Shown in pieces: positions 8,906 to 64,000 of a stretch of DNA of 64,000 nt (position 1 is the stretch's first letter; every line of letters starts with the position of its first letter). Below the pieces are notes generated by a model that was given only the letters and a program-made list of their open reading frames with translations, did not search any database and was not told where the DNA came from. The stretch spans positions 248,001 through 312,000 of the forward strand of contig NZ_VIKU02000002.1 of assembly GCF_009371985.2 (NCBI RefSeq), given 5' to 3'. This DNA comes from Pelagihabitans pacificus. Lineage in GTDB: Bacteria; Bacteroidota; Bacteroidia; Flavobacteriales; Flavobacteriaceae. A program made the translations under genes and the position numbers.

Positions 8906-9224
8906 GCCGCTTTCTTATAAAATGAGCCAATACCAATCCTCCTGCCCCAAAAATCAGAATGGTTCCCCAGATTAATAAATCCATCGTATCCTCGGTCAGT
9001 TCCATGGTGGTGAATATTGAGGAAGCAACCAATCCTATACCGAGCCCAAATGCAATACACCCAATGTCCAAATATTTGAACCTATCATTATTTTGATTTA
9101 ATACCACCCCTCTTTCTATCATTGCCTTTTTAACCAAATAGCTATACCTCGTGATTATAAACACCATTAGTATTGCTGCCACGACCACGGTCAATACTAC
9201 CAATAATTCGTTTAACTCCTTCAT
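8895..9224 (-). CDS. small membrane protein resembling DUF6249
   Basis: The 109-residue protein has three hydrophobic segments (about 7-26, 52-70 and 81-103) and a polar central loop, VLNQNNDRFKYLDIG. The arrangement resembles DUF6249 membrane proteins that accompany sigma factors in Bacteroidota; this assignment is tentative. It lies 17 bases after the serine hydrolase and overlaps the sigma-factor gene by 11 bases. It may take part in controlling that sigma factor. No catalytic motif is seen. Confidence 0.75.
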   Translation of the reverse strand: MKELNELLVVLTVVVAAILMVFIITRYSYLVKKAMIERGVVLNQNNDRFKYLDIGCIAFGLGIGLVASSIFTTMELTEDTMDLLIWGTILIFGAGGLVLAHFIRKRLEK

Positions 9225-9241
9225 AATTTGTCTTTGTTTAT

Positions 9242-10354: not shown

Positions 10355-10587
10355 TTAAGAACTATTTGGGGTTATTAAATAGGTTATTTCACACGTACAT
10401 GTATTAGACAAGACAGCTGAAAAAAAGGTTACAAAATAAATTATGACAATTCTTTGGATGGAAAAACAGGCAAAAGTCAATGGGGTGTTCCCAGAGAGAA
10501 ACCCACTACCGATAGGCCTCAACAAATTATTATTTGGTATGGTACCAAGGCCGTCAATAGGGCTCTATTTGATTAATTAAAAATAAA

Positions 10588-10939
10588 CTTGTCAAGAAAG
10601 CAGTACTTCATTTTGACATTGGCTGCAGCGACCTATAGGAGACTATTTCACCTAACAAGGAGGTGATAAAATGGACATTGACCAGCATGGGAATTCGGCT
10701 ATCATCGCAATCCGGACGTAAAAATGCATTCCTGGTCATATCCACAAACTAGGGAGCGAAGAGCCTCCGAAGTATACTACCATCTATATGGAGACCGTTG
10801 CACATGGTGCAGACGTAAAAACGGTCGAATACAATGGCGAGAAGGTATTGGTTCATCGTACCCACTGCCCGATGGAAGACAATTTGCCTGGTTTGGGCAC
10901 GTGGCCGTGAATACGGTAGGGTCCATAGCGCCAAAATAA
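10588..10939 (+). pseudogene. degraded VOC/glyoxalase-family gene
   Basis: Three frames joined give a VOC protein of the glyoxalase-like type. Frame one (from 10588) reads LVKKAVLHFDIGCSDL, then a TAG at 10636, then ETISPNKEVIKWTLTSMG. After a shift, CIPGHIHKLGSEEPPKYTTI and YMETV (10725-10799) matches the usual G-I-GHI..LG.EP.NY.T.Y region, and this frame stops at the TGA at 10908. The end, PLPDGRQFAWFGHVAVNTVG (about 10864-10921), is in a third frame and ends at the TAA at 10937. A 71-codon open frame at 10724-10939 is only a fragment of this relic. Between 10355 and 10587, and between 10940 and 11140, I see no gene; a 45-codon frame at 10443-10580 has no recognisable content. Confidence 0.85.
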
Positions 10940-11140
10940 ACCGGGAGAATGTCGCAACGGCACAAAAGCCACACGTCAACCGATTGATGATATAAAGGTA
11001 AGATACATAAGAGGGCAAGCCTGAAGGATTGGAAGATTGTTTTCGTAACATTACAATTCAGTCTGCCAATTCGACAACTGGGTGCCTTTTTCTTCCAACA
11101 AATCGTTTTCCACTATACCTTGAAATTAAAATAGCTGACA

Positions 11141-46823: not shown

Positions 46824-49229
46824 ATGAACAGACACATTAAAAAAGTAGCCGTCATTGGCTCTGGAATCATGGGAAGCGGCATCGCCTGCCATTTTGCCAA
46901 TATCGGGGTCGAAGTGTTATTATTGGATATCGTTCCGAGGGAATTGACTGAAAAAGAAAAAGCCAAGGGACTTAGCTTGCAAGACAAAGTCGTTCGCAAT
47001 CGTTTGGTCAACGACTCTTTGAACGCCGCCTTAAAATCAAAACCCTCGCCTATTTATCATCAGAAGTTCGCCGACCGGATAACTACCGGAAATTTAGAGG
47101 ATGATATTTCAAAGGTCTCCAAGGTAGATTGGATCATCGAGGTGGTCGTTGAACGTTTGGACATCAAAAAGACCGTTTTTGAAAACTTGGAAAAACATCG
47201 GACCCCAGGTACTTTGATCACTTCCAATACCTCCGGTATTCCCATTAAGTTCATGAGTGAAGGCCGCAGCGATGATTTCCAGAAACATTTTTGCGGAACA
47301 CATTTCTTCAATCCGGCGCGTTATCTGAAATTATTTGAAATTATACCCGGGCCAAAAACTTCAGCTGAAGTACTCGATTTTCTTAATGGATATGGAGAGC
47401 AATTCTTAGGGAAAACTTCCGTGGTCGCCAAGGATACTCCGGCGTTCATTGGAAATCGCATTGGAATCTTCAGCATCCAAAGTCTGTTCCATATGGTAAA
47501 AGACTTGGGAATGACCGTAGAAGAGGTCGACAAGCTAACGGGACCTGTTATCGGGCGCCCCAAATCGGCTACTTTTAGAACGGTCGATGTGGTTGGTTTG
47601 GACACTTTGGTACACGTGGCTAACGGCATTGCAGAGAATTGCAAGGACGATGAACAACACGGTCTCTTTCAGTTGCCAGACTTCATCAAGACGATGATGG
47701 ATAATAAATGGTTGGGTAGTAAAACGGGGCAAGGTTTCTATAAAAAGGTAAAAGGGGATGGAGGAAAAAGCGAAATCCTAACCTTGGATTTGGACACGAT
47801 GGACTACCGTTCCAAGAAGAGCGCCAAGTTCGCAACCTTGGAATTGACCAAAACCATTGATACTGTTACCGACCGCTTTAAGGTATTGGTAGGCGGTAAG
47901 GATAAGGCCGGGGAGTTTTATAGAAAGAGCTTTGCCGCCCTATTTGCTTATGTTTCCCATCGTATCCCTGAAATTACCGATGAGCTGTATAAAATCGATG
48001 ATGCTATGAAGGCCGGTTTTGGTTGGGAGCATGGTCCGTTTCAAATTTGGGATGCCATTGGTGTTCAGGAAGGTTTGGAAATGATGAAGAACGAAAATGC
48101 GGAAGCCGCCCCATGGGTGAACGAGATGCTGACAAGTGGACAAAAATCATTCTATTCTGTCAAGGAGGGTGCCACCTATTTCTACGATATCCCTAAAAAG
48201 GCTTTGGAAAAAATACCAGGTCAGGATGCTTTTATCATCCTAGACAACATCCGTAAATCCAAGGAGGTTTTCAAGAACAGCGGTGTCGTAGTCGAAGATT
48301 TGGGCGATGGGATCCTCAATGTGGAATTTCAATCAAAAATGAATACCATAGGGGGCGACGTGCTTGCCGGCCTCAACAAAGCCATTGATATGGCCGAAAA
48401 AGAGTATCAAGGGTTGGTAGTCGGAAATCAGGCCGCAAATTTCTCCGTAGGTGCCAATATCGGAATGATTTTTATGATGGCGGTCGAACAGGAATACGAC
48501 GAATTGAACATGGCCATCAAAATGTTCCAGGACACCATGATGCGTATGCGCTACTCCGCTATTCCTACCGTAGCTGCCCCACATGGCATGACCTTGGGTG
48601 GCGGGTGTGAATTGTCGATGCATTCCGATAAGGTGGTCGCTGCGGCAGAAACCTATATTGGATTGGTAGAATTCGGTGTCGGCGTTATCCCCGGAGGGGG
48701 CGGTTCCAAGGAAATGGCGCTGCGAGCACAGGATACGTTTAAAAAGAACGATGTAGAACTTAACGTCTTGCAGGAGTATTTCCTCACGATCGGAATGGCC
48801 AAAGTATCCACTTCGGCCTATGAGGCCTATGATTTAGGAATCCTGCAAAAAGGAAAGGATATCGTGGTCGTGAACAAGGACCGTCAAATTGCCACTGCCA
48901 AGGCACATGCCAAATTATTGGCCGAAGCAGGGTATACGCAACCTCCTAAGAGAAAGGATATCAAAGTGCTCGGCAAACAAGCCTTGGGGATGTTCCTGGT
49001 AGGAACCGATTCGATGGAGGCGAGCCATTATATCAGCGAACATGATAAGAAAATTGCAAATAAGTTGGCCTATGTGATGGCGGGAGGCGATTTGTCCGAA
49101 CCCACTTTGGTCAATGAACAGTATTTATTGGATTTGGAACGGGAAGCCTTTTTATCGCTCTGTACCGAGAAGAAAACATTGGAGCGAATTCAGCACATGC
49201 TTAAAACCGGTAAACCACTAAGAAACTAA
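46824..49229 (+). CDS. fadN: 3-hydroxyacyl-CoA dehydrogenase/enoyl-CoA hydratase, FadN type
   Basis: The bifunctional beta-oxidation enzyme has the dehydrogenase half first: NAD-binding VAVIGSGIMGSGIACHFAN (about 8-26), the catalytic His in CGTHFFNPARYLKLFEI and a second dehydrogenase domain. The hydratase/isomerase half follows at about 485-700, with SVGANIGMIF, HGMTLGGGCELSMHSD, and GLVEFGVGVIPGGGGSKEMA. The order (dehydrogenase then hydratase) and the length of 801 residues match B. subtilis FadN, not E. coli FadB. Next genes are the thiolase and acyl-CoA dehydrogenase, as in fadNAE. Confidence 0.92.
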   Translation: MNRHIKKVAVIGSGIMGSGIACHFANIGVEVLLLDIVPRELTEKEKAKGLSLQDKVVRNRLVNDSLNAALKSKPSPIYHQKFADRITTGNLEDDISKVSKVDWIIEVVVERLDIKKTVFENLEKHRTPGTLITSNTSGIPIKFMSEGRSDDFQKHFCGTHFFNPARYLKLFEIIPGPKTSAEVLDFLNGYGEQFLGKTSVVAKDTPAFIGNRIGIFSIQSLFHMVKDLGMTVEEVDKLTGPVIGRPKSATFRTVDVVGLDTLVHVANGIAENCKDDEQHGLFQLPDFIKTMMDNKWLGSKTGQGFYKKVKGDGGKSEILTLDLDTMDYRSKKSAKFATLELTKTIDTVTDRFKVLVGGKDKAGEFYRKSFAALFAYVSHRIPEITDELYKIDDAMKAGFGWEHGPFQIWDAIGVQEGLEMMKNENAEAAPWVNEMLTSGQKSFYSVKEGATYFYDIPKKALEKIPGQDAFIILDNIRKSKEVFKNSGVVVEDLGDGILNVEFQSKMNTIGGDVLAGLNKAIDMAEKEYQGLVVGNQAANFSVGANIGMIFMMAVEQEYDELNMAIKMFQDTMMRMRYSAIPTVAAPHGMTLGGGCELSMHSDKVVAAAETYIGLVEFGVGVIPGGGGSKEMALRAQDTFKKNDVELNVLQEYFLTIGMAKVSTSAYEAYDLGILQKGKDIVVVNKDRQIATAKAHAKLLAEAGYTQPPKRKDIKVLGKQALGMFLVGTDSMEASHYISEHDKKIANKLAYVMAGGDLSEPTLVNEQYLLDLEREAFLSLCTEKKTLERIQHMLKTGKPLRN

Positions 49230-49234
49230 GAAAC

Positions 49235-50425
49235 ATGAGAACAGCATATATAGTAAAAGGATACCGAACTGCGGTCGGTAAGGCACCAAAAGGGGTTTTC
49301 CGATTTAAAAGAACCGACGAACTCGCTGCGGAAACCATCGAACACATGATGAAAGAATTGCCGCAGTTGGATAAAAAACGCATCGATGATGTCATTGTCG
49401 GCAATGCGATGCCCGAGGGCTCACAAGGACTCAATATGGCACGGTTGATTTCTTTAATGGGATTGGATATCGTGGATGTGCCTGGTGTCACAGTGAATCG
49501 TTTCTGTTCTTCGGGAATTGAAACCATCGGAATCGCCACCGCCAAGATACAGTCTGGAATGGCCGACTGTATTATTGCCGGTGGTGCGGAGAGCATGAGT
49601 GCCGTACCCATGACCGGTTACAAAACGGAACTGAACTATGACCTGGTCAAATCCGGACATGAGGATTACTACTGGGGCATGGGTAACACGGCGGAAGCGG
49701 TTGCCCAAGAATTCAATGTGTCGCGTGAGGACCAAGACAAGTTTGCGTTCGAATCGCACCAAAAAGCACTAAAAGCGCAAGCCGAAGACCGTTTTCAAGA
49801 ACAAATAGCCCCTATTGAAGTAGAACAGACCTATATCGGTAGCGATGGTAAAAAGGCGACCAAAAAGTATACGGTCACCAAGGATGAAGGACCTAGGGCC
49901 GATACATCTTTGGAGGTCCTGGCAAAATTACGCCCGGTTTTCGCGGCCGGGGGAAGCGTCACGGCAGGGAACTCCTCACAGATGAGTGATGGTGCCGCGT
50001 TCGTGATGGTCATGAGCGAGGAAATGGTCAAGGAATTGAATCTGGAACCCATCGCACGCTTGGTCAACTATGCTGCCGCAGGGGTACCTCCTAGAATTAT
50101 GGGTATCGGACCCGTTGCCGCAGTACCAAAAGCCTTGAAACAAGCTGGTTTAAAACAAGGGGACATCGAACTGATCGAATTGAACGAGGCCTTTGCCTCC
50201 CAATCATTGGCGGTCATACGCGAGCTCGATTTGAACCAAGCTATCGTGAACGTGAACGGAGGAGCCATCGCACTAGGGCATCCACTAGGTTGTACCGGGG
50301 CTAAACTGTCGGTACAACTGTTCGATGAAATGCGCAAACGTGATATGAAAGGGAAATACGGCATGGTCACTATGTGCGTGGGAACCGGACAAGGTGCGGC
50401 TGGGATATATGAGTTTTTAAATTAG
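49235..50425 (+). CDS. fadA: acetyl-CoA C-acyltransferase (thiolase)
   Basis: It performs the last step of beta-oxidation, splitting 3-ketoacyl-CoA with CoA. Cys91 in VNRFCSSGIE is the acyl-carrying nucleophile. Further motifs are NGGAIALGHPLGCTGA (the active-site His) and the second catalytic cysteine in MVTMCVGTGQGAAGIYE. The length of 396 residues is standard. It begins 5 bases after fadN, so the two are cotranscribed and probably act together as a complex. Confidence 0.94.
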   Translation: MRTAYIVKGYRTAVGKAPKGVFRFKRTDELAAETIEHMMKELPQLDKKRIDDVIVGNAMPEGSQGLNMARLISLMGLDIVDVPGVTVNRFCSSGIETIGIATAKIQSGMADCIIAGGAESMSAVPMTGYKTELNYDLVKSGHEDYYWGMGNTAEAVAQEFNVSREDQDKFAFESHQKALKAQAEDRFQEQIAPIEVEQTYIGSDGKKATKKYTVTKDEGPRADTSLEVLAKLRPVFAAGGSVTAGNSSQMSDGAAFVMVMSEEMVKELNLEPIARLVNYAAAGVPPRIMGIGPVAAVPKALKQAGLKQGDIELIELNEAFASQSLAVIRELDLNQAIVNVNGGAIALGHPLGCTGAKLSVQLFDEMRKRDMKGKYGMVTMCVGTGQGAAGIYEFLN

Positions 50426-50460: not shown

Positions 50461-50820
50461 GTGGGAAGACATAATTTCAAAAAACTCAAAATTTGGGAAG
50501 AAGGAATGTCCATAGTGGATGAAACCTATGTGGTAACCAAGAAATTTCCCGATTTTGAAAGATATCATCTAATTTCCCAATTAATCATGTGCTCGGTTTC
50601 CATACCGTCCAATATTGCCGAAGTTACGAGAAAGTCTTGCTATAAGCACTTTAACAAGTATATAGAAGACAGTCTTGGCTCGGCTTTTGAATGGGAAACG
50701 CAGTTGAATGTGGCATATCGTCAAAAATATATCGATGAAGAAAAATTTGAAATATTAGAAAATAGAATACAACAATTACAACGAATGATTTCAGGATTTC
50801 AAGACGGACTGAATCGTTAG
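50461..50820 (+). CDS. four-helix-bundle protein (S23/IVS family)
   Basis: The 119-residue helical protein is of the type encoded in intervening sequences of 23S rRNA genes (S23/IVS-encoded family), with FKKLKIWEEGMSIVDETY and HLISQLIMCSVSIPSNIAE. The usual SNIAEG is SNIAEV here. It starts with GTG (no ATG in reach of the family start). It lies inside the fad unit, 35 bases after fadA and 41 before fadE. Members are scattered in bacterial genomes, including inside operons; no function is established. This copy is not within an rRNA gene. Confidence 0.85.
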   Translation: MGRHNFKKLKIWEEGMSIVDETYVVTKKFPDFERYHLISQLIMCSVSIPSNIAEVTRKSCYKHFNKYIEDSLGSAFEWETQLNVAYRQKYIDEEKFEILENRIQQLQRMISGFQDGLNR

Positions 50821-50861: not shown

Positions 50862-52673
50862 ATGAGCACAGAAACATTAAATAAAGAGATACTACGAGGC
50901 GGACAGTTCCTCGTAAAAGAAACCAAATGCGAGGATATTTTTACCTTGGAGGACCTTTCTGAGGAGCAAAAAATGATGCGGGACAGCACAAAGGAATTTG
51001 TGGACCGCGAACTATGGGCACACTGGGAACGCTTTGAACAAAAAGACTACGCGTTTACGGAAGAATGTATGCGCAAGGCAGGTGAGCTCGGTTTGCTGAG
51101 CGTTGCTGTTCCGGAAGCATATGGCGGAATGGGCATGGGCTTCGTCTCCACCATGTTGGTATGCGATTACATCTCAGGGGCTACCGGTTCCTTTAGCACT
51201 GCCTTTGGGGCCCATACGGGCATTGGTACGATGCCGATTACCCTGTATGGCACCGAAGAGCAAAAACAAAAATACGTGCCAAAATTAGCCTCTGGTGAAT
51301 GGTTTGGAGCTTATTGCCTTACGGAGCCTGGGGCTGGATCGGACGCGAACTCGGGTAAAACCAAAGCGGTCCTTTCCGATGACGGTACCTATTACAGCAT
51401 CTCCGGACAAAAAATGTGGATTTCCAACGCAGGTTTCTGCAATCTGTTCATCGTATTCGCCCGTATCGAAGACGATAAGAATATCACCGGATTTATTGTG
51501 GAGAACGACCCGAGCAACGGTATCACTTTGGGAGATGAGGAAAAGAAACTCGGCATCCACTCCTCCTCTACCCGACAGGTGTTCTTCAGCGAAACCAAGG
51601 TTCCCGTTGAAAACATGTTGTCTGAACGCGGAAATGGCTTTAAAATAGCTATGAACGCCTTGAACGTTGGGAGAATTAAGTTAGCGGCTGCTTGTTTGGA
51701 TGCCCAGAGAAGGGTTACGACCGAAGCGGTCAAATATGCCAACGAACGGATTCAATTCAAAACACCTATTATAAACTTTGGGGCCATCAAGGCAAAAATC
51801 GCCACCATGGCCATGAATGCCTATGTAGGGGAATCAGCCAGTTATCGCGCGGCCAAAAATATTGAGGACCGTATCGCCATTCGGGAGGCGGAAGGAAACT
51901 CCCACCAAGAAGCAGAATTAAAGGGAGTGGAAGAATATGCCATTGAATGCTCCATTCTGAAAGTGGCGGTCTCCGATGACTGCCAGGTAACCGCTGATGA
52001 AGGCATTCAAATTTTTGGAGGAATGGGCTTTAGTGCGGATACCCCGATGGAATCGGCATGGAGAGATTCGCGTATCGCACGAATCTACGAGGGCACAAAT
52101 GAAATCAACCGGATGTTGGCAGTTGGAATGCTGGTCAAGAAGGCAATGAAAGGTCATGTGGATCTGTTAGGTCCGGCAAGGGCCGTAGGCGAGGAATTGA
52201 TGGGAATCCCATCGTTCGACACCCCTGATTTTTCAGAATTGTTCGCCGAGGAAAAAGACTTGATTACCAGACTTAAAAAGGTATTTCTAATGGTCGCTGG
52301 AAGCGCCGTTCAAAAGTTTGGTCCGGAACTGGAAAAGCACCAACAGTTGATGATGGCCGCTTCCGACATCTTGATCAAGATCTATATGGCGGAATCAACC
52401 CTTCTCAGGACCGAGAAAAATGCAAAACGCTTCGGGGAAGAGGTGCAGGCCACTCAAATTGCTATATCTAAACTATATCTTTTTGAGGCGACCGAAACCG
52501 TGATTCGGAAAGGAAAAGAAGCTATCATCTCATTTGCGGAAGGCGATGAGCAGCGAATGATGTTGATGGGGTTAAAACGCTTTACAAAATATACCAATAA
52601 CCCGAACGTAGTGGCCTTGCGCAATCAAATTGCCGATAAGGTAGCTGCGGATAACGGTTACACCTTTGACTAA
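50862..52673 (+). CDS. fadE: acyl-CoA dehydrogenase, FadE type with C-terminal extension
   Basis: The FAD-dependent first step of beta-oxidation. The dehydrogenase core (about 30-420) has CLTEPGAGSDA, the FAD region KMWISNAGFCNLFIVFARI and the late QIFGGMGFSADTPMESAWRD. The catalytic Glu lies in RIYEGTNEINRM. An extra helical domain of about 180 residues follows (about 420-603), as in the roughly 600-residue FadE of B. subtilis. It ends the MarR-fadN-fadA unit and is followed by a strong terminator. Confidence 0.93.
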   Translation: MSTETLNKEILRGGQFLVKETKCEDIFTLEDLSEEQKMMRDSTKEFVDRELWAHWERFEQKDYAFTEECMRKAGELGLLSVAVPEAYGGMGMGFVSTMLVCDYISGATGSFSTAFGAHTGIGTMPITLYGTEEQKQKYVPKLASGEWFGAYCLTEPGAGSDANSGKTKAVLSDDGTYYSISGQKMWISNAGFCNLFIVFARIEDDKNITGFIVENDPSNGITLGDEEKKLGIHSSSTRQVFFSETKVPVENMLSERGNGFKIAMNALNVGRIKLAAACLDAQRRVTTEAVKYANERIQFKTPIINFGAIKAKIATMAMNAYVGESASYRAAKNIEDRIAIREAEGNSHQEAELKGVEEYAIECSILKVAVSDDCQVTADEGIQIFGGMGFSADTPMESAWRDSRIARIYEGTNEINRMLAVGMLVKKAMKGHVDLLGPARAVGEELMGIPSFDTPDFSELFAEEKDLITRLKKVFLMVAGSAVQKFGPELEKHQQLMMAASDILIKIYMAESTLLRTEKNAKRFGEEVQATQIAISKLYLFEATETVIRKGKEAIISFAEGDEQRMMLMGLKRFTKYTNNPNVVALRNQIADKVAADNGYTFD

Positions 52674-52758: not shown

Positions 52759-54786
52759 TTACCGGTTCCCGACCAAAAATCCAAACTTCTCGGAATAGTC
52801 GAGCATCTGGCCTTCGAAACTATCCGGCTGTATCACCCTAATGTCGACGATTTCACCCGAGTCGTTCGTTTCGGGTAGGAGCACCGGATTCACAAACCCG
52901 CTGTAAGGCGCCGATTTAAATTGCTGATTTCGGTCCAACACCTCGGCATGCAGCTTTTGATCCACTTTTACACCATAACCCTCTACCAAATCCTGCGCCG
53001 CTTTGAAATCTCCTTCCGATTTTATGCGCTGTGTCTCCCGCAATAGTTGCCCGAACAGGTCCCGCAACTTTTCATAATCGTTGATATTATAATAGGTCTT
53101 TCCATTCTTTTCCATCCTTTCGATCACATTGTCTTCCTTCCCCTTTTCAAAAGCCCAGGCAGAGACCCATTGTCTGTTGACCATGTGATCCTCCTCGATA
53201 TCATCACCAAGCTCTATTCGAATCAACTGGGTCATCAATCCATTTCGGATATACCCATCATAGGCCGCTTTCCCAAGCTCTTCCCAATCGTCTACTAAGC
53301 CCAACTCCTGTATTTTGGGGTCCATCAAGAAATAGAGACCTACCAAATCTGCCCTTCCTTCCTCCATGGTAGAGGCATAATTCTTTAAAGTTTCCTTGGG
53401 TTGTCCGATTCCTGGGTTAATTTGCCCCGATGCATGACCGACTACCTCGTGCAGGGCGGTATGCAGTTTATCGGCCAATTGTCCGTACTGCTCTTCCAGA
53501 GCGATTTCCTCATCATCGTAGGCAAATTCCTTTAACCTACCACTTCCTCCGGCGTTGTTGTAGGCGTCGATAATATTTCCAAGGGAAACCGACTTGCTAC
53601 CGTGTTTTTGGCGTATCCAATTGTTATTAGGGAGGTTTACGCCAATAGGAGTACTCGGGGAAGCATCCCCTGCCTCTCCGGCTACATTAACCGTCTTGTA
53701 GGAAACACCTACGACATCGCCTTTTTTGTGCTCCTCCATCAGAGGGGAGTTGTCCTCGAACCACTGGGCATTTTCCGATAGCACTGCCATTTGTTTGGAC
53801 ATCTCGAAGTCTTTTATCTGAACGATATTTTCATAAGAGCCTTTGTAACCTTTTGGGTCATTATAAACTTCTATAAAACCATTGATCCAATCAATATTTC
53901 CATCGGTAGCATTCACCCATGCGATAGCGTATTCATCCCAGGTATCAAGGCTTCCGGTCTTATAATAATCGATCAACAAACCTAAGGTTTTGGCTTGTTG
54001 CCCGTTCTCTGCTACTTCCTTTGCTTTTTCCAACCATTTGATGATTTCATCAATGGCGTTTCCGTACATGCCCCCGACTTTCCATACCTTTTCGATGAGC
54101 TTTCCGTTTTCCCTGACCAATTTTGAATTCAATCCGATCTCGATGGGCATCCCTTCAGGGCCTGTATCCATCGCCGAATAGAATGCTTCGACATCCGCAT
54201 CGGTAACTGAGGGGCCATAAAAGTTAACGGCGGAGGAGGCCACATTATCAACCCCCTTTTTCTTGTTTACTTTTTTACTGTCCTCATCATTGAAAATGAC
54301 CTCAAAAGCTGCCCCTTGCAACTCCGTATCGGTCTCTTTCAATAGAAAACCTAGGTAATCCTTGCCAAAACCTGGCTTTATTTTATCATTGGAATAGTGA
54401 TGATGTATTCCGTTAGAGAACCACACCCGTTTCAGATACGTTTCAAATGCCTGCCAGTCCTCGGTGCTTTTATCGCCTTGGTAAGATTGATAAACATTTT
54501 CCAACGCACCCCTAATTTCAAGGTTATGGCGGTAATTCTGGTCCCAAATGATATCCCGGCCCGCGAGGCCCGCTTGGGTGAGATAATACACTAGTTTCTT
54601 TTCCTTGAGGGTCAATTGTTCAAAACCTGGAATTTGGTAACGAAGAATCCGGAGATCAGCGAACTGATCGACCACGTATTCAAATTCCGTTTTCTTCGCG
54701 ACAACCGGTTTTTCTGTGACCTGTTCCTTACAAGACCACAAAAAACTTATAATCAGAAGACTACCTAATAGATTCTTTATTTTCAT
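52759..54786 (-). CDS. DPP III-like M49 zinc metallopeptidase, lipoprotein
   Basis: A lipoprotein (lipobox LWSC, Cys19) of 675 residues. The zinc site of the M49 family is complete: HEVVGH (HExxGH, about residues 440-445) and EEGRAD (the EExRAD motif, about 470-475). DPP III removes dipeptides from the N-terminus of peptides; bacterial relatives vary in specificity. In Bacteroidota the family is, as I recall, sometimes mislabelled dihydrofolate reductase. It is probably periplasmic, attached to a membrane, and degrades peptides. Confidence 0.9.
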   Translation of the reverse strand: MKIKNLLGSLLIISFLWSCKEQVTEKPVVAKKTEFEYVVDQFADLRILRYQIPGFEQLTLKEKKLVYYLTQAGLAGRDIIWDQNYRHNLEIRGALENVYQSYQGDKSTEDWQAFETYLKRVWFSNGIHHHYSNDKIKPGFGKDYLGFLLKETDTELQGAAFEVIFNDEDSKKVNKKKGVDNVASSAVNFYGPSVTDADVEAFYSAMDTGPEGMPIEIGLNSKLVRENGKLIEKVWKVGGMYGNAIDEIIKWLEKAKEVAENGQQAKTLGLLIDYYKTGSLDTWDEYAIAWVNATDGNIDWINGFIEVYNDPKGYKGSYENIVQIKDFEMSKQMAVLSENAQWFEDNSPLMEEHKKGDVVGVSYKTVNVAGEAGDASPSTPIGVNLPNNNWIRQKHGSKSVSLGNIIDAYNNAGGSGRLKEFAYDDEEIALEEQYGQLADKLHTALHEVVGHASGQINPGIGQPKETLKNYASTMEEGRADLVGLYFLMDPKIQELGLVDDWEELGKAAYDGYIRNGLMTQLIRIELGDDIEEDHMVNRQWVSAWAFEKGKEDNVIERMEKNGKTYYNINDYEKLRDLFGQLLRETQRIKSEGDFKAAQDLVEGYGVKVDQKLHAEVLDRNQQFKSAPYSGFVNPVLLPETNDSGEIVDIRVIQPDSFEGQMLDYSEKFGFLVGNR

Positions 54787-54938: not shown

Positions 54939-56381
54939 ATGAATAAAAATCTACTAAAATCGGCCTACTCCCCAGAGGATTTTCGAAAAAGAGGTCATCA
55001 GCTAATCAATGAACTCGCCGACCATTTATCGGACAAACTACATGGGAAATCGCAAAAGGCAATACATTGGAATCTTCCTGAGGATGAGCTCAACTTCTGG
55101 AAGGAATTTCTAAGGCGTGGAGATGACGCTTCCTTATTTTCCGAAATCACCAAACGCACCACCTATGTACACCATCCGCATTATATCGGACACCAGGTGA
55201 GTCCGTCGGCACCCATCACTGCGCTGAGCGGAATGATTAGTTCCTTGTTGAATAACGGAATGGCCGTATACGAAATGGGGATGTCGCCCTCGGCCATCGA
55301 ACGGGTGGTAACCGATATTCTTTGTAAAAAGATAGGGTATAATGCCGATTCCAGGGGATTCCTTACCTCCGGCGGTACCTTGGCCAACCTCACCGCCTTG
55401 CTATCGGCCCGAAAAGCCAAGGTCGTACAAGACGTTTGGAATGAAGGGCATTCAGGGCAGTTGGGAATTATGGTTAGTGAGGAAGCCCACTATTGTGTAG
55501 ACCGCGCTGCTAAAATCATGGGGTTGGGGGAAAAAGGAATCATTAAAATTCCGGCGACGAACGACTTTGAAATGGATACCTCTTTATTGGAGAAACGCTA
55601 TCAACAAGCAACCGAAAAGGGAATTCGTCCTTTCGCTATTATCGGAAGTGCCCCCTCGACGGCTACCGGGGTATATGATAATCTGGAGGTTATTGGCCAA
55701 TTCGCCCAACAGCATAACCTTTGGTTCCATGTAGACGGGGCGCATGGGGGAGCCGCCATCTTTTCGGAAAAATATCGATATACGGTGCATGGTATCGAGC
55801 TAGCAGATTCGGTAGTCATCGACGGCCATAAAATGATGATGATGCCCACTATCACTACCGCCTTGCTGATGAGAGAAGGAAAATACGCAAATGCCACCTT
55901 TAGCCAAAAGGCAGAATATCTTCTTACAGAGGCCGATCATGAGGATTGGTATAACTCCGGCAAAAGAACTTTCGAGTGTACAAAGACCATGATGAGCATC
56001 CACTGGTACACGATGTTTAAAGTATATGGGGAAGGTGTCTTCGACGAATTCGTAACCCAATTGTATGATATGGGGAGGCTTTTTGGGGATATCATCGAAA
56101 AGGAACCCGATTTTGAGCTTGCGGTTGCACCTGTATCGAATATAGTCTGTTTCCGTTTTGTAGATGCTACCCTCGATACAAAGGCCTTAAACAAGCTCAA
56201 CGCAAACATACGGCAACAGCTGCTGGAAGATGGGGAATTCTATATTGTGCAGACCAAATTGAGAGGCATCCATTATCTCAGGGTGACCGTAATGAATCCC
56301 TTTACTACGGAGTTTCATTTTAAAAAGTTGCTGGGGAACATTAAAGGAATATTGGAGAATAGTCGACTGACCAAACGCTAA
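54939..56381 (+). CDS. PLP-dependent group II decarboxylase
   Basis: The 480-residue enzyme has the fold and motifs of the aromatic-amino-acid/glutamate/diaminobutyrate decarboxylases: the PLP-binding HVDGAHGGAAI (Asp266) and the lysine DGHKMMMMP (Lys298). Earlier regions are HHPHYIGHQVSPSAPITALS and GFLTSGGTLANLTALLSARKA. The family uses aromatic amino acids, glutamate, or 2,4-diaminobutyrate; which one cannot be told here. It is upstream of, but convergent with, the GH15 gene and is probably transcribed alone. Confidence 0.88.
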   Translation: MNKNLLKSAYSPEDFRKRGHQLINELADHLSDKLHGKSQKAIHWNLPEDELNFWKEFLRRGDDASLFSEITKRTTYVHHPHYIGHQVSPSAPITALSGMISSLLNNGMAVYEMGMSPSAIERVVTDILCKKIGYNADSRGFLTSGGTLANLTALLSARKAKVVQDVWNEGHSGQLGIMVSEEAHYCVDRAAKIMGLGEKGIIKIPATNDFEMDTSLLEKRYQQATEKGIRPFAIIGSAPSTATGVYDNLEVIGQFAQQHNLWFHVDGAHGGAAIFSEKYRYTVHGIELADSVVIDGHKMMMMPTITTALLMREGKYANATFSQKAEYLLTEADHEDWYNSGKRTFECTKTMMSIHWYTMFKVYGEGVFDEFVTQLYDMGRLFGDIIEKEPDFELAVAPVSNIVCFRFVDATLDTKALNKLNANIRQQLLEDGEFYIVQTKLRGIHYLRVTVMNPFTTEFHFKKLLGNIKGILENSRLTKR

Positions 56382-56492: not shown

Positions 56493-58295
56493 TTATTCCC
56501 GCATCGCGTCCAATACCTGCTCTTCGCTTTCTTTGCGAGAGAAGTTGATGGCGCATTCGATCAATGCTAAATGGGAGTATGCCTGAGGAAAGTTTCCTAA
56601 GAGTCTTTTGGTCTTAAAATCAATATCTTCGCTGAACAAACCTAAATGGTTACTATAGGACAAGAGCCGGTCAAAATGGACCATCGCCTTTTCCTCTTCC
56701 CCAATCTTGAACAGACTGTTGATAAACCAAAACGTACAAATTGTAAAGGAGGAGGAAGGTAAACCAAAATCATCTTCATTCTTGTATCGGTACAGCAAAC
56801 CATCATTGCTCAAATCTTTCTCTATGGCTCTTACGGTACTCATAAACTTAGGGTCCTTTGCATGGATGAAACCGTAGGATTCCATCAATAGCACAGAAGC
56901 ATCCAGGTCCTTTGAACCGTAGGACTGGGTAAAGGCATTCACCTCGGGATTCCAGGCATTTTCGTGGATATCCTTTTTGATTTCTTGTTCCAACTTCGTC
57001 CATTTTTCAATCTTACGGGACTTACGAAACAAACGGGCCACTTTAATCGCCCGGTCTACCGCAACCCAGCAAAGTACCTTTGAAAAAGTAAAGTGCCGGT
57101 CCTCGGTGCGAAACTCCCAAATTCCCTTATCGGCTTCTTTCCAGTGATTGGATACGATCCAGACAATCCCTTTTGTAATACCCCATAATTCCTCGCCATT
57201 TTCAAGATCGGTGGAATACTTGGCCAGCTGTTCATAAATAACATCCATCAAAATTCCATAAATATCATTTTGCCTTTGCTTGTAGGCTGCATTTCCAACA
57301 CGAACTGGCCGGGACCCCTTGTAACCACTAAGATGTTCAAGGGTAGCCTCGGTCAATTTCTTCTCCTTGTTGATGCCGTACATAATCTGTAGTTTCTCGT
57401 CCTTATCGGGAATCAAATCAACGATAAACTGCAAATATCGACGGGCTACGTTCTTATGGCCCAAGTCCCCAATAACCTTGATAACCATAGAGGCATCCCG
57501 AATCCAACAAAACCGATAATCCCAATTGCGTACTTCCCCGATTGTTTCGGGCAAGGAAGTCGTTGCTGCGGCCAATACGGCACCCGTCTTGTCGTAGCTC
57601 AACAATTTTAAGGTGATAGCGCTACGGCCAATCTGCGTATTGTACTTTTTGTAATTTGGGGTTTTGCTGCTCCAGTTGAGCCAGTAAACCTTGGTACGTT
57701 CCAGTTCGGTGTACATTTTACGTACCGTTGGTTGAAAAATCTTTTCATTGTAACCCAGGAGCACGTAACCATCTTTTATGAGTTCGATTTCCCTGCCTTC
57801 CACCACAGCGTTTTTGTTAAAAGAGGTGTAGAGGAAAAAAGTATCGAACTTCTTTCCTTGGGTAAGGCTTACCACAAAATTCTTTTTTACATAGGTCTTG
57901 GTTTCCCCAAGTGCATATTCCAATCGAGGATTGTAGTGTAATATAAATCTAGGGGCCCCTTTGATATATTTGAAGTATCGAACGACTTCCGGAGGAGCGT
58001 TGTAACCCCCTCCTTCCTTTCGATACCTAGGCATAAAATCGCGAATCTCAAAGGAATTTTCACCGTCGGAAAAATGGGTGATCAACACCGCCGTATGTTT
58101 TTTATAGCGCTGCTTAACGGTATAGCCCGAATCGACCAAAATCTCAAAACTACCTCCTATTTTCTCATCCAACAACTTGGCAAAAACAGAGGAAGAGTCA
58201 AATTCCGGAAGACAGCACCAATCCAAACTGCCCGTTTTTGAAATAAGCGCTGCACTTCTACAATTTCCTATAATTCCGTAGTCTAAATTATCCAT
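56493..58295 (-). CDS. glycoside hydrolase family 15 enzyme
   Basis: The 600-residue protein starts MDNLDYGIIGNCRSAALISK, followed by GSLDWCCLPEFDSSSVFAKL, the typical N-terminal domain. The (alpha/alpha)6 catalytic barrel follows: NWDYRFCWIRDASMVIKVIG and later FTICTFWFINSLFKIGEEEKA. GH15 includes glucoamylase, glucodextranase and some trehalases. It has no signal peptide. Being divergent from trehalose-6-phosphate synthase/phosphatase, it could be an intracellular trehalase, so that the pair would make and break down trehalose. That role is inference. Confidence 0.88.
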   Translation of the reverse strand: MDNLDYGIIGNCRSAALISKTGSLDWCCLPEFDSSSVFAKLLDEKIGGSFEILVDSGYTVKQRYKKHTAVLITHFSDGENSFEIRDFMPRYRKEGGGYNAPPEVVRYFKYIKGAPRFILHYNPRLEYALGETKTYVKKNFVVSLTQGKKFDTFFLYTSFNKNAVVEGREIELIKDGYVLLGYNEKIFQPTVRKMYTELERTKVYWLNWSSKTPNYKKYNTQIGRSAITLKLLSYDKTGAVLAAATTSLPETIGEVRNWDYRFCWIRDASMVIKVIGDLGHKNVARRYLQFIVDLIPDKDEKLQIMYGINKEKKLTEATLEHLSGYKGSRPVRVGNAAYKQRQNDIYGILMDVIYEQLAKYSTDLENGEELWGITKGIVWIVSNHWKEADKGIWEFRTEDRHFTFSKVLCWVAVDRAIKVARLFRKSRKIEKWTKLEQEIKKDIHENAWNPEVNAFTQSYGSKDLDASVLLMESYGFIHAKDPKFMSTVRAIEKDLSNDGLLYRYKNEDDFGLPSSSFTICTFWFINSLFKIGEEEKAMVHFDRLLSYSNHLGLFSEDIDFKTKRLLGNFPQAYSHLALIECAINFSRKESEEQVLDAMRE

Positions 58296-58398: not shown

Positions 58399-60615
58399 AT
58401 GGGTAAAACTATCATAATCTCAAACAGACTCCCCGTGCAATTGCAAATTAGCAATGGAGGCATCACGGCCATCCCCAGTGTAGGGGGTTTGGCAACCGGG
58501 ATGAAATCGGTACATTCCGGGGGTGATAGTCTTTGGATCGGCTGGAGTGGGCTGACCAACGAGGAAATCCCCGAGGAATTGGAAGATGAGATCGACGACG
58601 CACTCTCCAAACACGGCTCGTCAAAAGTGAGCCTGACCGAAGAGGAGGTCGAAGGTTTTTATTTTGGCTTCAGCAATCGTACCATCTGGCCTTTGTTCCA
58701 TTATTTCCTGGAATATTCGGAATTTGAATTGGATAGTTGGAACACGTATAAAACGGTGAATAAAAAATTCGCCGATGCCATCCTTGAAAAGGCGGATGAA
58801 GACGATACGATTTGGGTACATGACTACCAGTTGATGTTGGTACCGCAAATGATCCGCGAAAAACGACCAAATATCGCTATTGGTTTCTTTCTGCACATAC
58901 CATTCCCATCATATGAAATATTCCGCACACTTCCTTGGCGTAAGGAAGTTTTGGAAGGACTCCTCGGATCGGATTTGATCGGGTTCCATATTTACGATTA
59001 CGAACGTCATTTTTTAAGTTCCGTGAGGCGACTTTTGGGTCTAGAAGTCAGTTTTAATGATATTTACAAAGGAAATAGAATCATTAAGGTCGATTCGTTC
59101 CCAATGGGCATCGACTATAAAAAATTCAGTGAGGCGGCCAAAAAACATGGGGAACGTAGTCCTGAACAGCACTCCGAGTTACAGCAACGCCTTAACAAGC
59201 ATAAAACGAGTGACCCGGACGCCAAATTTCTTCTATCAATCGACCGCTTAGACTATAGCAAGGGTATTGCCAAACGTTTGTATGCGTTTGAATATTTTTT
59301 AAATAAATATCCCCAGTATAAGGAAAAAGTGAGGTTGATTATCCTAGCGGTCCCCTCCCGCTCCAACGTACCACAATATCAATTACTTAAAAGGGAGATC
59401 GATGAACTGGTGGGCCGTATCAACGGCGAATTTTCTACCGTCAGCTGGACCCCCATCTGGTATTTCTATCGATCAATGCCCTTTGAGAATCTCATTGATC
59501 TCTATACCTCTAGCGACATTGCCTGGCTCACCCCCTTGCGTGATGGAATGAATTTGGTTGCCAAGGAATATATCGCTACTCGAACCGACAAAACAGGTGT
59601 CTTGATTTTAAGCGAAATGGCAGGTTCGGCCAATGAAATGAATGAGGCACTACTAATAAATCCCAATAATTTCGAACAAATAGCCGATACTATTTATGAA
59701 GCTATCAATATGCCCAAAGAGGAGCAACAGCACCGCAATGAACAGTTGCAGCAACGCTTGCGACGCTATAATGTCGAAAAATGGGCACAGAGTTTCATGA
59801 ACTCGCTGTTGGCCCAGAAAGAACGGGATGCAGCCCATGTATCTAAAAAATTGACCGACCATCATTTACAGATCATTATGGATGCATACGGTAATGCAAA
59901 AAAAAGGGTGTTATTCCTGGACTATGACGGCACCTTAACAGGCTTTCATAACGATCCCCAAAAAGCAAGTCCCGATGACGAGCTTTATCAATTACTCGAT
60001 GCCATACATCAACAGGAGGGTACCGATATGTTTCTTATCAGTGGAAGGGACAAAGATACCTTCGCCAAATGGTTCCTATCGAAAAAATACAATATGATCG
60101 TGGAACATGGTGTTTGGATTTCCAAGGATGGTGAAGACTTTAAATTACTGGAAAATGTGAAAAATGATTGGATGGAAAATATTCGTCCCGTATTGGAATC
60201 GTTCGTAGACCGGACACCTGGCAGCTTCATAGAAGAAAAGAACTATTCGCTTGCGTGGCACTATCGAAAGACCGATCCCGATTTTGGCAATCTGAGAGCC
60301 TCCGAGCTAACGACGGTCTTGACCAGTCTCATCGGCACTGACGACCTTAGCGTACTTAACGGTAATAAGGTCATGGAAGTAAAAAGTAGTAACGTGAACA
60401 AAGGAAGGGCATCTGTTAGGATGTTGGGGGAAAACGAATACGATTTTGTATTTGCGATCGGTGATGACTGGACGGATGAATTTATGTTTCAGGAGTTACC
60501 CGATAGCGCCATTACCGTCAAAGTGGGCAGACAAAAGACACAAGCCGCTTATTTTGTGGAGAACACCTTGAAAGTACGGGAACTTTTAAAATCTTTTATG
60601 AATATTGCCCTATGA
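58399..60615 (+). CDS. otsAB: fused trehalose-6-phosphate synthase/phosphatase
   Basis: The N-terminal part (about 1-470) is a GT20 synthase: TIIISNRLPVQLQ at the start, WVHDYQLMLVPQMIRE, GFFLHIPFPS, RLDYSKGI and the late LTPLRDGMNLVAKEY. The C-terminal part (about 500-735) is a HAD phosphatase with the nucleophile loop FLDYDGTLTGF and the end motif IGDDWTDEFMF. It makes trehalose from UDP-glucose and glucose 6-phosphate in one chain of 738 residues. It overlaps the next gene by 4 bases (ATGA), and the GH15 gene is divergent. Confidence 0.95.
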   Translation: MGKTIIISNRLPVQLQISNGGITAIPSVGGLATGMKSVHSGGDSLWIGWSGLTNEEIPEELEDEIDDALSKHGSSKVSLTEEEVEGFYFGFSNRTIWPLFHYFLEYSEFELDSWNTYKTVNKKFADAILEKADEDDTIWVHDYQLMLVPQMIREKRPNIAIGFFLHIPFPSYEIFRTLPWRKEVLEGLLGSDLIGFHIYDYERHFLSSVRRLLGLEVSFNDIYKGNRIIKVDSFPMGIDYKKFSEAAKKHGERSPEQHSELQQRLNKHKTSDPDAKFLLSIDRLDYSKGIAKRLYAFEYFLNKYPQYKEKVRLIILAVPSRSNVPQYQLLKREIDELVGRINGEFSTVSWTPIWYFYRSMPFENLIDLYTSSDIAWLTPLRDGMNLVAKEYIATRTDKTGVLILSEMAGSANEMNEALLINPNNFEQIADTIYEAINMPKEEQQHRNEQLQQRLRRYNVEKWAQSFMNSLLAQKERDAAHVSKKLTDHHLQIIMDAYGNAKKRVLFLDYDGTLTGFHNDPQKASPDDELYQLLDAIHQQEGTDMFLISGRDKDTFAKWFLSKKYNMIVEHGVWISKDGEDFKLLENVKNDWMENIRPVLESFVDRTPGSFIEEKNYSLAWHYRKTDPDFGNLRASELTTVLTSLIGTDDLSVLNGNKVMEVKSSNVNKGRASVRMLGENEYDFVFAIGDDWTDEFMFQELPDSAITVKVGRQKTQAAYFVENTLKVRELLKSFMNIAL

Positions 60616-62132
60616 CACAAAAAATCACCGCGCTATTATTTTTGGTCTCAATAATCGCCCATGCGCAGACCAATACCGAAGTATATCTTATGGATGTTAG
60701 CACAACCGATGGCAAAATAAGCTTGGGGGAGCCCCGGAATATTTCGAACAACGAAGGCTATGACAACCAGCCCTCTTTTTATAATGACAATCTGATATTG
60801 TTTTCCTCCACACGAAACCGTCAGACCGATATCGCCCAGTATAATGTGAGGGACAACATAAGCTCGTGGATTACCGATACCCCGAGGGGAAGCGAGTATT
60901 CCCCCCTGAAAATTCCTGGAAAGAAGGAGTTTTCAGCTATCCGTTTGGATACCAATGGTTTGCAACGCCTGTACCGATATGATATGGAATCGGGAAAACC
61001 CAGCCTCTTACTTCGGGATTTAAAGGTCGGATACCATCTCTGGTTTGCTGAGGATATTTTGATTTCCACTGTTTTAGTGGACGATCGAATGGACTTGGTG
61101 GTATCGAACTTACAGGATAACACCAACTACACCTTTCAGAAGAACGTAGGGCGATCTTTACATAAAATTCCCGGCACCAAATTGATCAGCTATATCAGTA
61201 AGGAAAACGAGGTGTGGGAAATAAAATCAATGGATCCTATCTCCGGAGCTACCCAATTTATCACCAATATACCTCCAGAAATTGAGGATATATGTTGGTT
61301 GATTAATGGTACTATCCTTGTGGGAATGGGCAATACCCTATATCGATTTCATCCCAAAACGGATTCCCAATGGAGTGTGCTCCATACCTTCGAAGGCAAA
61401 AACCTGGGCAGCATTTCGCGCCTGGCCACCAATGCCAATTCCTCTAAATTGGTATTGGTCTCGGAGGTATCCCCTGAAATTGTGGTCCAGAAACAAGTAG
61501 AAGCATATAACCAGAGGGATTTGGATGCCTTTGCCTCTTGCTATTCGGAAAATGTCTTGGTTCAATATTTTCCGAGCGATACCCTATACATGGGTCGCGA
61601 AACATTGAGAAACAACTACCAAAATTACTATGAAAACACCCCGGAAACCGGTGTGGAAGTAATTAAACGGATCAGTATCGGGAACAAAGTTATCGATGAG
61701 GAAAAAGCCAGCGATATGGGTAAGACCCAACGTCAGGTGGCCATATATGAAGTGAACAACGGTCTTATCGATAGCATGAGCTTTTTGTTTGAAAAAGAAT
61801 CGGATATGGAAGCGGAAGCCGTTGTTCAAAAACAATTGGATGCCTATAACGCTAGGGATATCGATGCGTTTTTGGAAACCTATTCCGATGATATTCAAAT
61901 ATTCGACTATCCAAACAAGTTCAGCTATCAAGGAAAGGAACGAATGCGATCGGGATACGGTGATTTTTTTCAAAACACTCCGGACTTGAATTGCACCATT
62001 AAAAACCGCATAATCATAGGCAACAAAGTGATCGACGAGGAATATTTGACTGTCAATGGAAACAATTTTAACGCGGTGGCCATTTATGAGGTGAACGAGG
62101 GAAAGATTTCAAAGGTTACTTTTGTACGATAA
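60612..62132 (+). CDS. exported beta-propeller protein with two C-terminal NTF2/SnoaL-like domains
   Basis: The 506-residue protein has a signal peptide (about residues 1-19, ending AHAQ). TolB/WD40-like propeller repeats follow (about 22-285; PSFYNDNLILFSSTRN resembles the TolB repeat). Two tandem NTF2-like domains come last (about 291-393 and 404-506); they are clearly copies, for example VVQKQVEAYNQRDLDAF versus VVQKQLDAYNARDIDAF, and IGNKVIDEE in both. The gene overlaps otsAB by 4 bases and is thus translationally coupled to it, yet its product should be exported. Function unknown; the NTF2 copies may bind a small ligand. Confidence 0.82.
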   Translation: MTQKITALLFLVSIIAHAQTNTEVYLMDVSTTDGKISLGEPRNISNNEGYDNQPSFYNDNLILFSSTRNRQTDIAQYNVRDNISSWITDTPRGSEYSPLKIPGKKEFSAIRLDTNGLQRLYRYDMESGKPSLLLRDLKVGYHLWFAEDILISTVLVDDRMDLVVSNLQDNTNYTFQKNVGRSLHKIPGTKLISYISKENEVWEIKSMDPISGATQFITNIPPEIEDICWLINGTILVGMGNTLYRFHPKTDSQWSVLHTFEGKNLGSISRLATNANSSKLVLVSEVSPEIVVQKQVEAYNQRDLDAFASCYSENVLVQYFPSDTLYMGRETLRNNYQNYYENTPETGVEVIKRISIGNKVIDEEKASDMGKTQRQVAIYEVNNGLIDSMSFLFEKESDMEAEAVVQKQLDAYNARDIDAFLETYSDDIQIFDYPNKFSYQGKERMRSGYGDFFQNTPDLNCTIKNRIIIGNKVIDEEYLTVNGNNFNAVAIYEVNEGKISKVTFVR

Positions 62133-62141
62133 GAACTCCCT

Positions 62142-63311
62142 TTGAAAACGCGGCCCCATATACTTCCCACTATTATTATTTCACAATTTGCATGTACCAG
62201 TCTTTGGTTTGCAGGAAATGCCATTGTCGACCAATTGGCCAGAAAAACGGGGCTAGGGCCGGAAATTATAGGATATGTATTGTCGTCCGTACAATTGGGG
62301 TTCATTATGGGCACCTTGGTCTTTGCTTTTTTAATGATTGCGGACCGGTTTTCACCATCCCGCGTTTTTTTGATCTGTGCGATACTGGGCGCCTTGTGCA
62401 ACCTGTGCCTGCTTTTCGAGGAGATCTCCCAATGGGCCCTTCTTGCCGCGCGCTTTGGTACCGGATTCTTTCTAGCCGGAATTTACCCGGTGGGAATGAA
62501 AATCGCCGCCGATTACTATGAAAGGGGCTTGGGAAGGGCCTTGGGATATCTGGTCGGAGCGTTGGTGTTGGGAACGGCCTTTCCCTTTCTAGTAAAGGCC
62601 TTATCTATAGATACCAATGGCGCAATGGTAATTAAAACCACCTCCCTGCTGGCAGCCTTGGGAGGATGTACCCTTTGGTTGTTCGTACCAAACGGTCCGT
62701 TTCGAAAACGCAGCAAAAAACTGCAGTTGTCCGCGGGGCCAACCCTGTTTAAAATTGGCGGCTTTCAAAAAGCGGCCTTTGGTTATTTTGGTCATATGTG
62801 GGAGCTGTATGCCTTCTGGGCCTTCACACCCTTGGCGTTGCAAACTTTCAATGCCATGAACAACAAGGAATTCCCTGTCGCCATAGCCACATTTATGGTC
62901 ATCGCCATGGGTGGGGTCTCCTGTATGTTGGGCGGACTGCTATCGCAACGTTTTGGAAGTAAAAAAGTGGCACAGTCGAGCCTGACGGTTTCCGGTCTTT
63001 TCTGTTTGGTCTCTCCCCTTCTTTTTTATTTGGATCCGTTGTTGTTTATGGCTGCCTGGTGTCTTTGGGGAATGGCCGTCACGGCCGATTCCCCTCAATT
63101 CTCTACATTGGTCGCCATAAACGTTCCTTCCGAACTCAAAGGTACGGCCCTCACCTTGGTCAACTGTATCGGTTTTGCCATTAGCATCGTCAGTATTCAA
63201 TTAGGGTCTTTTGTCCTAAAGGGAGTAAATCCCCAATTCCTTTTTTTGATGTTGGCCTTGGGTCCGATTATAGGAATCTGGCAATTGACCAAAAAAGCCA
63301 TTAATTTTTAA
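62142..63311 (+). CDS. MFS transporter
   Basis: The 389-residue protein has about 12 membrane helices, and the MFS loop motif appears between helices 2 and 3 as ADRFSPSRVF. No substrate-specific motif was recognised; it could export or import a sugar or an organic acid. Translation begins at TTG 62142, 10 bases after the propeller gene, with no closer ATG. It follows otsAB and the propeller gene in the same direction and is probably cotranscribed. Confidence 0.82.
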   Translation: MKTRPHILPTIIISQFACTSLWFAGNAIVDQLARKTGLGPEIIGYVLSSVQLGFIMGTLVFAFLMIADRFSPSRVFLICAILGALCNLCLLFEEISQWALLAARFGTGFFLAGIYPVGMKIAADYYERGLGRALGYLVGALVLGTAFPFLVKALSIDTNGAMVIKTTSLLAALGGCTLWLFVPNGPFRKRSKKLQLSAGPTLFKIGGFQKAAFGYFGHMWELYAFWAFTPLALQTFNAMNNKEFPVAIATFMVIAMGGVSCMLGGLLSQRFGSKKVAQSSLTVSGLFCLVSPLLFYLDPLLFMAAWCLWGMAVTADSPQFSTLVAINVPSELKGTALTLVNCIGFAISIVSIQLGSFVLKGVNPQFLFLMLALGPIIGIWQLTKKAINF

Positions 63312-63340: not shown

Positions 63341-64000
63341 ATGAAACATCTTTTAGTTGTATTACTCTTTGTTTTTTACCTGGGGGGGAATGCCCAAACC
63401 GACCAACGCCTATATGACATTATCGAGGCAGTTTCAGCCGAACGCATCGCAAAGGATATAGAGACCCTGGCAAATTTTGGTACCCGGCATACCCTGAGCG
63501 ATACACTTTCCCAGACCCGTGGTATAGGGGCTGCAAGACGGTGGATCAAAGCCGACTTCGAGAGGACCTCGGCCGCCTGTAATGGTTGTCTGGAGGTTTC
63601 CTATCAAAAGAACTTGGTACCAAAGGGTGATAACGACCGGATAACCAAAGATGTTTGGGTAGTGAATGTCCTGGCAGTTAAACGGGGTACCAAATACCCC
63701 AACCGCTATATCATCATGAGCGGGGATATCGATTCGCGGGTTAGCGACCCCAACAACTTCACCTCCGATTCACCGGGTGCCAATGACAATGCAAGTGGCA
63801 TGGCCGGGACCCTTGAGGCTGCCCGGGTACTCTCAAAATATGATTTTGAAAATAGTATTTTATTCGTCGGACTATCGGGAGAAGAACAAGGATTGTACGG
63901 TGGGAAAGGACTCGCCGCCCATGCCATGGAACAGGGTTGGGACATCATCGGTATCTTCAACAACGATATGATCGGTAACATTACAGGTGTCGACGGCGTT
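63341..64000 (+). CDS. M28-family zinc peptidase, N-terminal part
   Basis: It begins with ATG at 63341 and a signal peptide (about residues 1-18, ending GNAQ) and runs off the window, with 220 residues visible. The stretch MSGDIDSRVSD (about 126-136), SPGANDNASGMAGTLEAARV and FVGLSGEEQGLYGG, then NNDMIG match M28 peptidases: the second motif has the bridging Asp and the third the catalytic Glu pair. The first zinc His, usually GH(Y/L)D, is GDID here. Expected to cleave N-terminal amino acids in the periplasm or outside the cell. Confidence 0.85.
   Translation, partial: MKHLLVVLLFVFYLGGNAQTDQRLYDIIEAVSAERIAKDIETLANFGTRHTLSDTLSQTRGIGAARRWIKADFERTSAACNGCLEVSYQKNLVPKGDNDRITKDVWVVNVLAVKRGTKYPNRYIIMSGDIDSRVSDPNNFTSDSPGANDNASGMAGTLEAARVLSKYDFENSILFVGLSGEEQGLYGGKGLAAHAMEQGWDIIGIFNNDMIGNITGVDGV

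Follow-up and report, generated by a model that had tools for sequence, protein, structure and literature searches.

Why should the gene for an exported protein begin inside the stop codon of a cytoplasmic trehalose enzyme? The question is posed by a stretch of 64,000 nucleotides from Pelagihabitans pacificus, a member of the Flavobacteriaceae, which we refer to throughout as the window. Within it, the ATG of a 506-residue open reading frame shares four bases (ATGA, 60612–60615) with the stop codon of otsAB. The initial annotation had reported this overlap, correctly, and had read it as translational coupling to trehalose synthesis, a sign of joint expression. It had also described the product as an exported TolB-like propeller followed by two NTF2-like domains, an architecture with which it was not familiar. 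The description has held. A functional link to trehalose is not supported, and the reasons for this lead to a rather different view of the locus.

Anatomy of an exported propeller

The N terminus, MTQKITALLFLVSIIAHA followed by Q, has the look of a signal peptide, and there is no lipobox. A hydrophobic N-terminal stretch is present in 214 of 216 homologs, the mature domain usually starting with Q. By sequence, Pfam finds a weak PD40 match in the propeller (E 0.005) and two stretches of SnoaL_2 (PF12680), at 89.3 bits against a gathering score of 27; together with the NTF2 fold, the latter place the two C-terminal domains (Table 1) in the SnoaL_2/NTF2-like superfamily. An AlphaFold2 model of the whole protein, made with 50 homologs, comprises the propeller, NTF2 A and NTF2 B (mean pLDDT 90.9), and the NTF2 pair modeled alone reached a pLDDT of 95.9.

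Table 1 Features of the locus in the window (coordinates are window positions; aa, amino acids).
Feature	Position	Strand	Basis or remark
FadB-like 3-hydroxyacyl-CoA dehydrogenase/enoyl-CoA hydratase	46824..49229	+	
Thiolase	49235..50425	+	
Acyl-CoA dehydrogenase	50862..52673	+	
M49 peptidase, lipoprotein-like N terminus	52759..54786	-	
PLP-dependent decarboxylase	54939..56381	+	
GH15 trehalase-like protein	56493..58295	-	Divergent from otsAB
OtsAB, trehalose-6-phosphate synthase/phosphatase	58399..60615	+	Ends in ATGA overlap with next gene
Exported protein, propeller and two NTF2-like domains, 506 aa	60612..62132	+	ORF, Pfam, AlphaFold2
Signal peptide, aa 1–18 (...IIAHA/Q)	60612..60665	+	Sequence; no lipobox Cys
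Six-bladed TolB-like propeller, aa 19–287	60666..61472	+	AlphaFold2, VIA-align, conservation
NTF2/SnoaL_2 domain A, aa 288–394	61473..61793	+	Pfam, AlphaFold2, copy comparison
NTF2/SnoaL_2 domain B, aa 399–506	61806..62129	+	Pfam, fold model, residue conservation
MFS transporter	62142..63311	+	
Secreted M28-type peptidase	63341..64000	+	Runs beyond window end; 443 aa in related locus L300; M1-type aminopeptidase next

The closest folds to the propeller are exported six-bladed propellers. VIA-align superposes it on TolB of the Tol–Pal system (Protein Data Bank [PDB] code: 7mx5) with a Z score of 22.8 and an rmsd of 2.7 over 239 residues, as expected of a TolB-like six-bladed fold, and on the stand-alone propeller 2ojh with a Z score of 22.1. 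A TolB it is not. The N-terminal TolB domain is missing, the propeller beginning directly after the signal peptide; the blades carry residues of their own; NTF2 domains follow at the C terminus; and the TolB model TIGR02800 scores 18.1 bits against a cut-off of 343.

The propeller belongs to an old Bacteroidota family that is uncurated, normally single-domain (~300 aa) and equipped with a conserved set of polar residues of its own. These residues (Q53, E95, Y141, R181, D226 and R270) are 97 to 100% conserved across 39 homologs from other families at ~30% identity. In a DSSP assignment of the model, each begins the innermost strand of a separate blade, and on this strand topology the six should ring the central channel. 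Profile searches found no solved (PDB) relative of the propeller, Pfam has no family over it beyond the PD40 repeats, and NCBIfam returned only subthreshold TolB matches. Nor did we find a paper describing the propeller–NTF2 architecture in the literature searched, and neither Pfam nor NCBIfam describes the combination. The constituent folds are already known.

The NTF2 domains have conserved residues too: N413, R466, D475, E477 and Y492 are at least 97% kept in both members of the pair, in domains that occur singly and in the amidohydrolase fusions. The internal duplication had been thought recent-looking, a view that the identities contradict. Copies A and B of the protein share 45% identity, against 77% between copy A and its counterpart in a relative (L032), and copy A groups with copies A of other genera in a 105-column tree, albeit a poorly resolved one. 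By these comparisons, the duplication is old, predating the split of these genera. The Aquimarina protein (L052) resembles a separate, later duplication (56%). Elsewhere in the P. pacificus genome there is a stand-alone secreted NTF2 protein of 151 aa (L002:1399–1854, contig C1), 42 to 43% identical to domain B, whose closest solved sequence relative, the SnoaL_2 protein Atu0742 (PDB code: 2k54; E 1e-16), is a single domain without a propeller.

Trehalose synthesis and the overlapping gene

Does the overlap mean anything for trehalose? An even sample drawn from the family, 120 genomes in all, contains the propeller in 53 and otsAB in 38; the two occur together in 17, against 16.8 expected (p=1, kinship ignored), and 36 of the 53 propeller genomes are without otsAB. 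Where both are present, otsAB usually lies within 5 kb of the propeller (13/17), an adjacency confined to part of the family. Spacing is variable: across the 69 loci with otsAB directly upstream it runs from -68 to +257 bp, with the -4 overlap in exactly 14, and in the nearest relatives (L032, L042 and L057; 64–69% identity) a 278-aa lipoprotein-like gene separates the two. Moreover, otsAB and the M28 peptidase gene lie within about 2 kb of one another in 13 of the 14 genomes that have both of them without a full propeller gene, so the propeller fills a variable slot in a conserved locus. Tested by phylogenetic profile, by spacing and by synteny, a functional link to trehalose finds no support and was rejected. 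We take the overlap to reflect placement on a common transcript rather than a role in trehalose metabolism, and the neighborhood to be mostly accidental. The Maribacter litopenaei record (L065) shows GH15, otsAB and the propeller gene all split into several frames, probably through sequencing errors.

A conserved locus with a variable slot

Gene order in the window and its relatives runs MarR, FadB, thiolase, acyl-CoA dehydrogenase, then (in some clades) PLP decarboxylase, GH15 and otsAB, then the slot, M28 and M1. Acyl-CoA dehydrogenase is the commonest upstream neighbor where otsAB does not intervene (for example, in 13 of 18 DUF6265-type loci). The beta-oxidation neighborhood may nevertheless be as incidental as otsAB, since its enzymes are cytoplasmic and the propeller protein is exported. 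M28 co-occurs with the propeller in 46 of the 120 family genomes, against 37.1 expected (p 5e-4, kinship ignored), and lies within 5 kb of it in 39 of those 46, making this an M28-linked locus. MFS, CBM9-like, TMEM175-like and other genes also occupy the slot.

Several further genes deserve mention. Between the thiolase and acyl-CoA dehydrogenase genes is a 119-aa four-helix-bundle gene (50461–50820), with similar genes at varying operon positions in relatives. Downstream of M28 and M1 in a related locus (L300) are an S9 peptidase-like gene with, by eye, an N-terminal propeller (8434–10473) and a small VOC-like gene (10618–11058). With that S9-like gene and the M49 gene of the window, the neighborhood is rich in peptidases.

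Exchangeable C-terminal domains

The propeller does not always end in a pair of NTF2 domains. Our census of 217 propeller loci, a sample skewed to near relatives (the even 120-genome sample is quoted for frequencies where possible), counted 66 with two NTF2 domains, 61 with one, 18 with DUF6265, 3 with a VOC/glyoxalase-type domain and 69 with no tail. At 40 loci from other families of the class the propeller stands alone, one of them (L262) giving no propeller ORF, and matches elsewhere in the phylum are mostly frames of 290 to 370 aa. A propeller tree of 210 rows, built by a quick method, implies at least 23 switches from one tail type to another. In the Flavobacteriaceae, the propeller has gained a C-terminal socket, at which NTF2/SnoaL_2 (once or twice), DUF6265 and VOC domains have repeatedly been gained, lost and swapped.

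The same domain types also occur unfused. Free secreted genes in the slot near the propeller encode VOC at 11 loci and DUF6265 at 12 (23 in total), and the NTF2 type is found fused to an amidohydrolase adjoining the propeller. For DUF6265, on which we found no paper in the literature searched, 29 genomes have the propeller and a high-scoring copy: it is fused in 8 and adjacent in 9 (one of which, G048, may be a broken fusion), an adjacency with a chance probability of ~4e-18. Fusion to the propeller is limited to these three small pocket domains even though the gene found most often directly downstream is M28, which counts against mere read-through. The genus of P. pacificus itself has one species with propeller and NTF2 pair, as here, one with the propeller alone (G231) and one with the NTF2 pair alone, bearing its own signal peptide (G018); in another genome (G044), the NTF2 pair sits alone between acyl-CoA dehydrogenase and M1. 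The two halves are therefore not strictly interdependent in one chain.

Two observations concern the other tail types. P. pacificus has a DUF6265 protein on a different contig, far from the propeller (C17:227314–227634). In the VOC domains at L086:9248–9751 and in the fused copy at L187, the usual first His ligands are, by eye, seemingly missing, which suggests a metal-free binding role for VOC domains at the propeller locus.

What might the protein do?

Our best explanation, which we put forward tentatively and at somewhat less than an even chance, is a periplasmic module for ligand binding or processing: a propeller with exchangeable pocket tails that works with the adjacent secreted peptidases. 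The funnel of the propeller would bind or turn over one conserved anionic ligand, perhaps peptide- or acyl-amino-acid-like; the C-terminal pocket domains would act on a companion small molecule, by binding or by modifying it; and propeller and tails together might supply or regulate the neighboring secreted peptidases or amidohydrolase, with the M28 peptidase and the amidohydrolase acting in the same process as the propeller protein. This proposed mechanism has backing from secreted NTF2-like domains at large, which tend to be nonenzymatic ligand binders and are thought to regulate fused or operonic hydrolases (PMC3924330). The families of that study (DUF3828, DUF3887 and DUF4878) are likewise exported, fused or linked to peptidases or hydrolases, and proposed as ligand-binding regulators (PMC3924330). 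They differ in being other Pfam families with other partners, without a propeller and with no reported domain exchange.

An alternative that we regard as possible, if on the unlikely side, is that the propeller is itself the enzyme. Its funnel would then house an entire active site, making it a lyase, hydrolase or isomerase as other six-bladed propellers are, and the tails would be dispensable auxiliaries. Its polar residues persist at ~30% identity while tails come and go, the majority of homologs outside the family are propeller alone, and so is the protein of one congener. However, known propeller enzyme families are unmatched by sequence, the top fold match, TolB, is a protein-binding propeller, and in two lineages the propeller has been lost while the NTF2 pair persists. 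Could there be no cooperation at all? What separates the upstream operon from M28 might simply be a permissive slot, a place where small secreted genes land and some fuse to the propeller by read-through. The miscellany of MFS, CBM9-like, TMEM175-like and other genes found there, the alternation of the same domains between free and fused forms, and the occurrence of propeller or NTF2 pair alone would all fit. The restriction of fusions to three small pocket-type domains, with M28 the commonest gene downstream, does not fit, nor does the persistence of the five NTF2 residues (N, R, D, E and Y, each kept at 97% or more) whether the domain is fused, duplicated or joined to an amidohydrolase, and we think this explanation improbable.

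The tandem NTF2 domains might instead hide an enzyme akin to ketosteroid isomerase or to the Lsd19/MonB epoxide hydrolases. The polyether epoxide hydrolases Lsd19 and MonBI–MonBII are the best whole-length fold matches, each with two NTF2-like domains (Z 19.3 over 218 residues), and the conserved acids D475 and E477, which may lie in the pocket, are present along with R466 and Y492. Identity is 16%, though, the rmsd across the pair exceeds 4 Å (4.2), and these enzymes are intracellular, biosynthetic and without a propeller, whereas the P. pacificus protein is exported. Ketosteroid isomerase was rejected by its residues: of the catalytic Tyr14, Asp38 and Asp99, Tyr14 aligns with Q408, the Asp38 site is not kept, and the Asp99 site lies outside the alignment. 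Secreted NTF2 domains are usually noncatalytic (PMC3924330), and we consider a hidden enzyme of either kind very unlikely. Iota-carbonic anhydrase was rejected as well: the protein passes the TIGR02246 SgcJ/EcaC cut-off (41.2 versus 33.95), yet the (H)HHSS motif that marks these enzymes (PMC8425729) is missing from its 506 residues. Slightest of all is the prospect that the protein, translated together with otsAB, is an exported sensor or an export factor tied to trehalose. The ATGA overlap and the proximity of otsAB in 13 of the 17 genomes with both argue for it; chance-level co-occurrence, propeller genomes lacking otsAB, loss of the overlap in the nearest relatives, otsAB–M28 adjacency that survives without the propeller, and the separation of cytoplasmic OtsAB from an exported protein all argue against.

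Implications

Returning to the periplasmic module, one can go further and see the exported propeller, with its active site-like funnel, as a chassis for interchangeable NTF2, DUF6265 and VOC domains which, with the secreted peptidase and amidohydrolase, forms a periplasmic module for an acyl- or peptide-type metabolite. This is speculative, and we think it rather unlikely; if true, it would provide the first functional context for DUF6265. Short of that, DUF6265 and secreted SnoaL_2 and VOC proteins gain a context in their fusion or adjacency to a conserved exported propeller and secreted peptidases. There is also a general caution here, that function may be mispredicted from a four-base overlap with a metabolic gene. 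As for the propeller, the residues to mutate now have names, and if its funnel is an active site, it would be a new enzyme or binding family, open to testing, across the Bacteroidota.
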